Source: Sandarakinorhabdus sp.
Lineage (GTDB): Bacteria > Pseudomonadota > Alphaproteobacteria > Sphingomonadales > Sphingomonadaceae
Assembly: GCA_025458465.1 (NCBI GenBank)
Contig: JALOSK010000031.1
Coordinates: 1-12,874, forward strand
Direction: 5' to 3'
Length of the DNA stretch: 12,874 nucleotides
Numbering within the stretch: the first letter of the stretch is position 1; each line of letters starts with the position of its first letter. Below, in pieces: positions 7,922 to 12,611 of this stretch. The position numbers and the translations under genes are program-made. Below the pieces are notes generated by a model. The model did no database searches. It had not been told where the DNA came from and was given only the letters and a program-made list of their open reading frames with translations.

Positions 7922-7998
7922 TGGTAGCAGCGGGCAGATTTGAACTGCCGACCTCCGGGTTATGAATCCGGCGCTCTCACCAACTGAGCTACGCTGCC
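7922..7998 (-). tRNA. tRNA-Met (CAU anticodon), elongator type
   Basis: The 77-base cloverleaf reads on the minus strand. The acceptor stem GGCAGCG/CGCTGCT has a G-U first pair. The D arm is GCTCAGTTGGTGAGAGC, the anticodon loop TTCATAA, the variable region AGGTC and the T arm GGCAG TTCAAAT CTGCC, with CCA encoded after discriminator A. Paired position 1-72 excludes an initiator tRNA, and the GGC...GTAGCTCAGTTGG body resembles elongator Met rather than the CAU-anticodon Ile tRNA. The last anticodon-stem pair (31-39) is an A-C mismatch. It lies between the DUF481 gene and the nitronate monooxygenase-like gene, all on the same strand. Confidence 0.95.
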
Positions 7999-10083: not shown

Positions 10084-11583
10084 ATGATGATCCGCACGAT
10101 GCTGTTGGCCGCCGCGCTGGCCACCGTTCCCGCAAGCGCCGCCCCGGTGCTCGACACGCCGGTGAAGGACAGCTGGTGGCAGGGCGGCCGCGATGCGCTG
10201 GCCAGCCGCCTGAAGGTGATCAACCGGCCGAAGCGGGCCAGGAACGTGATCCTGATGGTGGGCGATGGCATGGGCATCTCCACCATCACCGCCGGGCGGA
10301 TCTTTGATGGCCAGCACCCCATTGATGGCCGCAAGCCGGCCAGCGGCGAGGAAAACAGCCTGGCGTGGGATGGCATGACCAACAGCGCGCTGGTGAAAAC
10401 CTACAACACCAACGCCCAGACGCCGGACAGCGCCGGGACCGCATCGGCCTTCAACACCGGCGTGAAAACCCGCATCGGCGTCATCAACTTCGGCGCCGAT
10501 CAGGGCCCGGAAGCCTGCAAGACCCCTGAAAAACTGCCGCGCACCTTTGCCGAAATCGCCAAGGCGCAGGGCATGGCGGTGGGCGTTGTCACCACCACGC
10601 GCGTCACCCATGCGACGCCGGCGGCCGTGTATGGCCATGTGCCGGCGCGGGACTGGGAAGGGGCTGACCGAGCCTATCCGGCGGCGGACAGGGCGTCGGG
10701 CTGCGCCGATCTTGCCACCCAGCTGGTGAATTTCCGCGGTGGGCTGGATGTCGTGCTGGGTGGCGGCCGTGCCCGCTTCCTGCCCGCCGGCAAGGGCGGC
10801 CAGCGCGATGATGGCCGCAACCTGGTGGAGGAATGGCAGAAGGCCTTCCCGCAGGGCCGCTTTGTCAGCGATGCCAAGGGCCTGCGGGCCTTGAGCAGCC
10901 GCGACACCGGCCCGGTGCTGGGCCTGTTCCATCCCGATCACCTGAACTTCGAGCATGACCGCAAGGCCGATGCCGAACCCAGCCTGCCGGAAATGACCCG
11001 CTTTGCGCTCGATCGCCTCGATGCCGGCGCCAAGGCGCGGCGCGGCAAGGGCTATTATCTGATGATCGAAGGCGGCCGTATCGATCACGCCCACCACGCC
11101 AGCAACCCCTATCGGGCGCTCAAGGAAACCCAGATGTTCAGCGCGGCGGTGGCCGAGGTGCTGGCCCGCGTGAACCTGGATGAGACGCTGGTGCTGGTCA
11201 CTGCCGATCACAGCCACGTGCTGACCATCGCCGGCTACCCTGAACGCGGCAACGACATATTGGGCTATATCAAGCCGCCGGCCCGCGGCGGGGAGGGCGA
11301 TGGCGCACTCAGCCCGGAAGGCTTTGCGCTCGATGATCGCGGCCAGCCGATGACCACCTTGTCCTACGCCAATGGCCCGTTCGTGGCGCGCGGCCTGTCC
11401 CGTATGCTGCCGCCGAACGATCCCAACTATCTGGCCAACAAGACCCATGGCACCAGCGGCGAAACCCATGGCGGGGAAGATGTGGCGCTGTTTGCCGAAG
11501 GCCCACGCGCCGATCTGGTGCGCGGCGTGATGGAACAGAACCTGATCTTCCACATCATGGCCGAAGCGCTGGGGTGGCGCTGA
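10084..11583 (+). CDS. Alkaline phosphatase, PhoA superfamily, exported
   Basis: Periplasmic metal-dependent phosphomonoesterase that releases phosphate from organic esters. The 499-residue protein has a Sec signal peptide (1-19, ending PASA). Active-site residues by motif: D61 (MVGDGMG), nucleophile S116 (TPDSAGTAS), H176 and T178 (THATPAA), E329 (MIEGGRIDHAHH), D334, H335 and H338, D375/H376 (TADHSH) and H462 (THGGEDV). Histidines 176 and 335 occupy the places of E. coli Asp153 and Lys328, the arrangement seen in mammalian and Vibrio enzymes and associated with high turnover. Two ATGs (10084, 10087) are possible; the first has GGGG seven bases upstream. It follows an oxygenase gene by 41 bases. 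No canonical 11-base-periodic PHO box is seen just upstream, so phosphate control is not shown. A hairpin follows the stop. Confidence 0.95.
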   Translation: MMIRTMLLAAALATVPASAAPVLDTPVKDSWWQGGRDALASRLKVINRPKRARNVILMVGDGMGISTITAGRIFDGQHPIDGRKPASGEENSLAWDGMTNSALVKTYNTNAQTPDSAGTASAFNTGVKTRIGVINFGADQGPEACKTPEKLPRTFAEIAKAQGMAVGVVTTTRVTHATPAAVYGHVPARDWEGADRAYPAADRASGCADLATQLVNFRGGLDVVLGGGRARFLPAGKGGQRDDGRNLVEEWQKAFPQGRFVSDAKGLRALSSRDTGPVLGLFHPDHLNFEHDRKADAEPSLPEMTRFALDRLDAGAKARRGKGYYLMIEGGRIDHAHHASNPYRALKETQMFSAAVAEVLARVNLDETLVLVTADHSHVLTIAGYPERGNDILGYIKPPARGGEGDGALSPEGFALDDRGQPMTTLSYANGPFVARGLSRMLPPNDPNYLANKTHGTSGETHGGEDVALFAEGPRADLVRGVMEQNLIFHIMAEALGWR

Positions 11584-11593
11584 CAGCGCTGCA

Positions 11594-11622
11594 CGGCGCG
11601 CGACTTGGCGCTTGGCGCGCCG
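11594..11622. terminator. Hairpin between convergent phosphatase and 36-aa peptide genes
   Basis: Eight-base-pair stem CGGCGCGC / GCGCGCCG with a 13-base loop. It starts 11 bases after the phosphatase stop on the plus strand and 14 bases after the small peptide's stop on the minus strand. It is placed to end transcription from both sides. No T-run on either strand, so efficiency cannot be judged. Confidence 0.5.
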
Positions 11623-11635
11623 CAAGGGCGTGTTG

Positions 11636-11746
11636 TCACCGCACCAGCAGCCAGCCAGCCACGGTGCCGGCCAGGCCGCCGAGTCCCAGTCCGGCGATCC
11701 AGATCAACGCTGGCCAGCGCGGATGATCGCGAAGACGCCGTATCAT
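11636..11746 (-). CDS. 36-aa membrane peptide with a glycine zipper, behind a sigma54-type promoter
   Basis: The 36-residue frame begins MIRRLRDHPRWPALIWIAGL. A strongly basic N-terminus (four arginines in residues 3-10) precedes a tryptophan-flanked hydrophobic helix (about 11-35) with glycines at 19, 23, 27 and 31, an exact GxxxGxxxGxxxG zipper of the sort that drives helix packing in membranes. ATG 11746 follows a strong Shine-Dalgarno (TTTGGAGG, about five bases away). Upstream are a sigma54 -24/-12 element and an inverted repeat; downstream is a hairpin. I do not recognise a family. Inferred orientation is N-in by the positive-inside rule. It could be a stress-induced membrane microprotein, like the small Psp proteins in size only, a toxin-like peptide, or the translated part of a small RNA. 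RBS, promoter, composition and terminator together make a real gene likely. Confidence 0.65.
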   Translation of the reverse strand: MIRRLRDHPRWPALIWIAGLGLGGLAGTVAGWLLVR

Positions 11747-11777
11747 GGCTGCCTCCAAAGTTGCCCCATCGTGTTTT

Positions 11778-11793
11778 TGCAAGGTTCGTGCCA
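11778..11793 (-). promoter_or_regulatory. Sigma54 (RpoN) -24/-12 promoter
   Basis: Minus strand reads TGGCACGAACCTTGCA, matching the sigma54 consensus TGGCACG-N4-TTGCW at every specified base, with correct GG to GC spacing. The start would fall near 11767, 21 bases upstream of the 36-residue peptide's ATG and just ahead of its Shine-Dalgarno. Sigma54 promoters need an activator ATPase bound upstream; an inverted repeat at 11808-11829 is the only visible candidate site in the gap. Confidence 0.65.
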
Positions 11794-11807
11794 GAAGATT
11801 GAGCCGA

Positions 11808-11829
11808 ACAAGGCGCTGATTTGCCTTGT
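11808..11829. promoter_or_regulatory. Inverted repeat upstream of the sigma54 promoter (possible activator or repressor site)
   Basis: Seven-base arms ACAAGGC and GCCTTGT are separated by eight bases, lying between the truA stop and the sigma54 element. Its centre is about 52 bases upstream of the predicted start, nearer than usual for a sigma54 activator (commonly 80-150). A repressor, a second regulator, or a terminator stem for truA are alternatives. Confidence 0.4.
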
Positions 11830-11849: not shown

Positions 11850-12611
11850 TCAGTCTGTAAGCCCCACCGACAGTTCCGGGTAAACCGCGCCCACGAAGAA
11901 CAGGCCCTCCGGCGGCGCATTGAGGCCAAGCGCACCGCGATCGCGCGCTGCCAGCGCCGCTGCGAGATCATCCGCCGTCCACGCCCCTTCGCCCACCAGC
12001 TTCAGGCAGCCCACCATCGAGCGCACCTGATGGTGCAGGAAGGACCGTGCAGCCGCGAACACGTCGACGGCATGGCCATTTCGCACCACCAACAGCCGGT
12101 CCAGCGTGCGCAGCGGCGAATTGGCCTGGCACTGGGCAGAACGGAAGGTGGTGAAATCATGCCGCCCCACCAGATGCTGTGCGGCGGCATGCATGGCATC
12201 GGCATCCAGCGGCACCGGCACCCGCCATGCCAGCCCCGCTTCGAAGGTGAGGGGCGCGCGGCGGTTCATGATGCGATAGCGGTAACGGCGACCAATGCAG
12301 TCGAACCGCGCATGAAAGCCGGGCGCTTCGGCGCAATCAAGGATGGCGACCGGCTGTGGCTTCATCCTGGCATTGATGGCTTCCATCAGGCGGAACGGCG
12401 CGATGTCCTTGGCGATATCGGCATGTGCCACCATGGCGCTGGCATGGACGCCGGCATCGGTACGCCCGGCGGCCACCACGTCCACCGTTTCACCGGTCAC
12501 GCTGTGGATGGCATCCTCGATCGTCGCCTGCACGGATGGCCCATGCGCCTGCCGTTGCCAGCCCATGAAGGGCCGGCCATCATATTCCACCGTGAAGCGA
12601 AACCGCGTCAT
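11850..12611 (-). CDS. truA: tRNA pseudouridine(38-40) synthase TruA
   Basis: TruA converts uridines 38-40 in the anticodon arm of many tRNAs to pseudouridine. The 253-residue protein is of normal length. It has the N-terminal [16 protein letters not shown] (6-21), the catalytic-site motif [11 protein letters not shown] (47-57) with nucleophile Asp52, RRYRYRI (108-114), the [11 protein letters not shown] block (149-159) and [19 protein letters not shown] (191-209), all standard. ATG 12611 overlaps the fmt stop in ATGA, so it is translationally coupled to fmt; this order is common in alphaproteobacteria. 103 bases separate it from the downstream 36-residue peptide gene. Confidence 0.97.

Follow-up and report, generated by a model that had tools for sequence, protein, structure and literature searches.

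The space downstream of truA in Sandarakinorhabdus sp. most probably holds a gene for a membrane microprotein with a single helix, a member of the predicted PrsK-PrsR/σ54 regulon of PEP-CTERM genes in this sphingomonad lineage. Judged from sequence, we put the probability of this reading at about 0.88, a figure that excludes the partner of the microprotein. We assign the protein to an unnamed microprotein family of the predicted regulon because it has an enhancer and promoter in common with PEP-CTERM genes, the gene is linked to truA, its glycines are invariant and its substitutions are those of a coding sequence. A literature search found no paper on a PrsR-controlled microprotein among the matches listed, which were CC-licensed PMC papers.

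Layout of the microprotein gene

The window, meaning the whole stretch of 12,874 nucleotides that was analysed, carries the microprotein gene on the minus strand at 11636-11746 (36 codons and a stop; ATG at 11746, stop at 11638-11636). Along that strand, the end of truA with the enhancer in it is followed by an IHF-like motif, a σ54 site, the predicted transcription start at 11767 (12 bases past the GC of the promoter, counted from the sequence), a GGAGG Shine-Dalgarno sequence (11752-11756, minus, by direct reading of the sequence), the ATG and the stop codon, and then by the phosphatase gene. The upstream neighbour, truA (11850-12611, minus; PF01416), encodes a tRNA pseudouridine synthase with 85% identity to that of S. 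rubra and 84% to that of S. oryzae, both named relatives, and the alkaline phosphatase gene (10084-11583, plus; PF00245) is convergent to the microprotein gene. The peptide, MIRRLRDHPRWPALIWIAGLGLGGLAGTVAGWLLVR, has a basic N-terminus and glycines at residues 19, 23, 27 and 31 (GxxxGxxxG). With 21 sequences from the genus, AlphaFold modelled a single helix over residues 11-35 (mean pLDDT 83.4), a model that is uninformative on partners. The window peptide had no Pfam match at E 0.001, an NCBIfam scan of eight members of the family gave no match near any cut-off, and nothing in the region of the gene reached the Rfam gathering threshold. The strong Shine-Dalgarno sequence of the window was, by eye, absent from most relatives. 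In Sandarakinorhabdus rubra (G022, locus L075), the start codon lies 12 bases past the -12 element, where transcription should start, so the microprotein mRNA may be leaderless in this relative.

A first-pass annotation of the window had described the 36-codon frame, a full σ54 -24/-12 match, the GGAGG and the four glycines, all of which are present as described. It had also counted an inverted repeat and a hairpin to make an ordered set of five parts, and of this set only the frame, promoter and leader stood. The inverted repeat ACAAGGC/GCCTTGT (11808-11829, strand not assigned; arms at 11829-11823 and 11814-11808) overlaps the IHF-like motif, and was rejected as an activator site since arms of at least 6 bases occurred in just four of 20 promoters from the genus, counting that of the window, and it is hence not conserved. 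The GC hairpin 3' of the stop codon (11594-11622, minus; arms CGGCGCGC/GCGCGCCG at 11622-11615 and 11601-11594) was rejected as a terminator: its folding is unexceptional compared with shuffled sequence (z 0.33; 122 of 200 shuffles folded as well or better), and no T-run follows it. Neither element has weight in the case for the unit.

Elsewhere in the window, all on the minus strand, two neighbouring genes encode DUF3011 proteins (PF11218) at 731-1834 and 1860-2699, the former with a glycine-rich GGGFGGSGGSGG-type repeat and tandem repeats at 1508-1634. A tRNA-Met (CAT) gene (7922-7998) lies between a nitronate monooxygenase-like gene and the gene for a DUF481 protein, and a peptidase S49 gene (1-600) is cut by the window end.

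Conservation within the genus

We surveyed 24 genomes of the genus with truA as the anchor. In 21 of them, the 400 bases after truA contained a frame with the pattern G(L/I/M/V)xxGxxxG, compared to 56 of 1200 letter-shuffled stretches, and a σ54 site lay downstream of truA in 20 of the 24. The frame, the glycine pattern and the promoter were thus conserved in relatives, as the first-pass annotation had proposed to check. The remaining genomes, G004, G005 and G006, had no microprotein frame after truA, nor any enhancer-like site there, and in G004 truA almost abuts the phosphatase gene; in G020 the frame was kept and both enhancer and promoter were degenerate. Across the 21 aligned peptides M1, G19, G23 and G27 were invariant, with W16 and L20 close to invariant, and lysine and arginine outnumbered aspartate and glutamate in the N-terminal flank of 18 members, with ties in G007, G015 and G020. 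Substitutions were of the coding type, with pN/pS between 0.21 and 0.58 in all nine close pairs, in each of which the third codon position was the most changed. Searching 60 relatives with the peptide only returned mostly chance-like matches; four weak ones (G008, G009, G014 and G022) were at the truA locus.

A predicted σ54 promoter with a PEP-CTERM-type enhancer

The σ54 -24/-12 promoter TGGCACGAACCTTGC (11779-11793, minus) has 0 mismatches to TGGCACGNNNNTTGC and reads exactly TGGCACG-N4-TTGC. Taken alone, this match is weak and near background in the genome of origin, which had 10 exact matches compared to four for the reversed pattern; within the window, the pattern at up to one mismatch matched twice, as many as were reached in 36 of 200 shuffles. 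The unit stands above chance because the σ54 site and the frame are conserved after truA and are joined by the enhancer. The genome, a 2.5 Mb draft that is 76% complete, does encode rpoN (G000:C349), which the first-pass annotation had suggested looking for. Two of its σ54 sites besides that of the window, L065 and L056, stand before PEP-CTERM-like proteins; L056 had no enhancer within 160 bases of its σ54 site.

The enhancer TGTCGGTGGGGCTTACA (11856-11872, minus; 17 bases), which is motif 1 of the PEP-CTERM type and the predicted PrsR site, lies in the 3' end of truA with a spacer of 62 bases to the -24 element, and has one mismatch to TGTCGGNNNNNTTTACA. Since the enhancer sits within truA, the unit is not self-contained, as it had been called. 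Taken within the window by itself, the enhancer at up to two mismatches is not significant, as 60 of 200 shuffles had at least one match. The upstream sequences of the genus genomes have TGTCGGNNNNNTTTACA in common, in most cases some 80 bases upstream of the -24 element and in most genomes inside truA, and the spacers between enhancer and σ54 site cluster at 52-53 or 62-66 bases, about one helical turn apart. Between enhancer and promoter lies the IHF-like motif AATCAGCGCCTTG (11809-11821, minus); this motif was found in the enhancer-promoter region of 16 of 20 genus promoters, compared to a mean of 0.055 and a largest value of 2 in letter shuffles.

We then searched the 24 genus genomes for the enhancer, 38-68 bases and a σ54 site in that order, with the reversed pattern as control, and obtained 61 matches and none, respectively. 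Counted from the list, 19 matches were the truA site and 42 lay elsewhere. Sixteen of these 42 were read, of which 15 precede PEP-CTERM genes, a count that takes in L195, whose anchor end reads PDP instead of PEP, and L189, which was read only up to the motif; the sixteenth (L212) is cut off by a contig end. Four PEP-CTERM proteins, L065 from the genome of origin and three from relatives, passed the PEPxxWA-CTERM cut-off of NCBIfam. At L065 (G000:C370) a perfect enhancer, TGTCGGAAAAGTTTACA, is situated 75 bases before the σ54 site, a spacer that exceeds the gap allowed in the pattern search.

The microprotein enhancer conforms to the regulatory motif published for PEP-CTERM genes and attributed to PrsR. 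In Haft et al. 2006 (PMC1569441), a 17-base motif ending in TTTACA is followed, after a spacer of 32-92 bases (mean 62.8), by a σ54 motif; the pair precedes 99 of 167 proteobacterial PEP-CTERM genes, and PrsR is the predicted binder. The window resembles that arrangement in its spacer (62 bases compared to the published mean of 62.8), in the σ54 motif 2 and, with one mismatch, in the end of motif 1 (CTTACA instead of TTTACA); rpoN, PrsR and PrsK are all found in its genome, as is the same pattern before PEP-CTERM genes. It differs in its product, a single-helix protein of 34-84 residues without a PEP motif, which was absent by eye from 28 aligned sequences of the family, and eight members had no PEP-CTERM sorting-domain match in NCBIfam. 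It also differs in having its enhancer inside truA, whereas that paper describes the additional sites in PEP-CTERM-positive genomes as never lying within a coding region (PMC1569441). The sites compared here suggest that a coding sequence can harbour a PrsR enhancer.

Distribution in the family

A profile built on protein only was searched in 149 and then in 397 genomes of the family. The larger search listed 44 matches, of which we read the 30 with loci; 10 of these belong to the genus and 20 fall outside it under seven other genus labels. The remaining 14 matches had E values of 1e-4 to 1e-3. In all 30 loci a truA match lay 107-212 bases upstream of the microprotein. The enhancer was present with at most one mismatch in 27, the other three having 2, 2 and 3 mismatches, and a σ54-like site matching a loose pattern was found in all except one. 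Among the 25 matches listed in the earlier search, four of the 10 read outside the genus had no enhancer; matches of this kind came from G030 (two small frames) and from G090 and G110 (long frames). Aligning the peptides of 20 genus members and eight others showed G19, G23 and G27 to be invariant in all 28. Among deposited proteins, the family is represented by hypothetical, unnamed records from Polymorphobacter, Glacieibacterium frigidum, Thermaurantiacus tibetensis and Sandaracinobacteroides. NCBI taxonomy places Polymorphobacter, Glacieibacterium and Thermaurantiacus in the Sphingosinicellaceae, where it also lists Sandarakinorhabdus, the genus to which the named truA relatives bring the window close. 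Five records (P0016, P0019, P0022, P0028 and P0039) were automatically labelled 'gas vesicle protein' or 'YesL', all from one source, which look like misannotations.

Co-occurrence with PrsR, PrsK and exosortase

The genes for PrsR and PrsK adjoin in the genome of origin (G000:C298), and its PrsK matched TIGR02916 with 445.6 bits (cut-off 300). PrsR was found in 23 of 24 genus genomes and in 126 of the 149 family genomes, including all 13 of that sample with a confirmed microprotein; many of the 126 show no microprotein match. The sole genus genome without PrsR, G006, had no enhancer matches and no microprotein, yet had two exosortase matches. G001, a genus genome that is 99% complete, has the microprotein along with PrsR and a PEP-CTERM gene, yet nothing in it matched the exosortase family PF09721. 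G016, which is 78% complete, likewise has the microprotein and no exosortase match. From these very small numbers, the exceptions appear to track PrsR rather than exosortase, which is partly expected because the microprotein promoter is predicted to need PrsR. G004 and G005 have PrsR and no microprotein, so the microprotein is dispensable.

Alternative explanations

In the window the enhancer lies within truA, whose end reads LSVG-T, and the match could in principle reflect mere coding constraint on that gene. However, the enhancer was kept after the truA stop codon in G016, G018, G019 and G023 and across it in G012 and G017, which argues that truA coding does not maintain it. We also compared 80 named truA loci, the best 80 of 499 truA relatives. 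Seven had both the enhancer (up to two mismatches) and a σ54 site, and these were not independent, as their records were already among the surveyed genomes; the other 73 had no σ54 site, and there the enhancer had 4-5 mismatches in 70 and 2-3 in three, none having fewer than two. On the position after or across the stop and on these control loci, truA constraint was rejected, leaving it a negligible chance. A regulatory RNA with an incidental frame would suit a short σ54 unit with a GC hairpin, and a small dual-function RNA had been put forward in the first-pass annotation. It is highly improbable, and was set aside because substitutions are of the coding type (pN/pS below 1 in every close pair, a check the same annotation had named), and folding is ordinary, with z scores of -0.68 for the RNA and 0.33 for the hairpin; the invariant glycines and the Rfam result argue in the same direction. 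The annotation had further pointed to phage shock or nitrogen limitation as the likely input. PspF and NtrX, the regulators that would act in such control of a stress microprotein, are both encoded in the genome. Because PEP-CTERM genes carry the same enhancer, we set aside both inputs and consider such control very unlikely. What survives of the inducible membrane microprotein first suggested is a σ54-type promoter before a conserved glycine-zipper microprotein, without the inducers named for it.

For the partner of the microprotein, we place PrsK first and PEP-CTERM anchors or exosortase second by analogy with MgrB. MgrB is a small membrane protein of the PhoQ/PhoP regulon that is reported to inhibit PhoQ (PMC2789325, PMC8404706). 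MgrB and the microprotein are both small single-helix membrane proteins, each in a regulon governed by a membrane-bound sensor kinase, here judged by promoter type and helix prediction; unlike MgrB, the microprotein has a helix built on GxxxGxxxG, and the MgrB family was absent among the NCBIfam matches of eight members (E up to 5). Feedback on PrsK or tuning of it is our leading guess, and a tentative one. The microprotein might instead be an exosortase accessory or a helix partner that stabilises PEP-CTERM anchors before cleavage. PEP-CTERM genes have the same enhancer and promoter. The anchors consist of a helix that contains W and GFG..G and is followed by arginines; small-residue motifs occur in both helices, and the opposite predicted topology would give antiparallel pairing. 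The exosortase matches of G006 without microprotein, and the microprotein of G001 without exosortase match, speak against this role, a weak objection with one genome each way, since an exosortase in G001 may have escaped the match and G016, whose pattern agrees with that of G001, is incomplete. We consider this role unlikely. Proteins with a single helix commonly assist large membrane complexes, and a PrsR target with some other envelope task (polysaccharide export, membrane stress or a transporter subunit) would agree with a regulon that is supported and a partner that is not. No neighbouring gene hints at such a task, truA and the alkaline phosphatase having no evident link, and we rate it as somewhat unlikely.

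Proposed mechanism and implications

For the microprotein of the predicted PrsK-PrsR/σ54 regulon, we postulate that the sensor kinase PrsK activates PrsR, which would bind the 17-base enhancer at the truA end. Bending of the DNA, probably by IHF, would bring the enhancer to the σ54 polymerase at the promoter, and the microprotein would be produced alongside the PEP-CTERM surface proteins. It would then insert in the inner membrane so that its basic end stays cytoplasmic, as its charge predicts, and the invariant GxxxGxxxG face may pack against a larger membrane protein. That this glycine-zipper microprotein is dedicated to the PEP-CTERM system, being made by way of PrsR and acting back on PrsK or on PEP-CTERM sorting, has in our judgement about even odds. 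If true, an exosortase-linked surface programme would have built-in control by a small protein, with its enhancer hidden in a tRNA-modification gene. The stimulus of PrsK was called obscure in the paper that named this kinase (PMC1569441). The conservation of this gene suggests a small-protein part of the PEP-CTERM system that has so far gone unnoticed, and a conserved small protein under the same predicted switch may offer a handle on what tunes PrsK or the handling of PEP-CTERM proteins.
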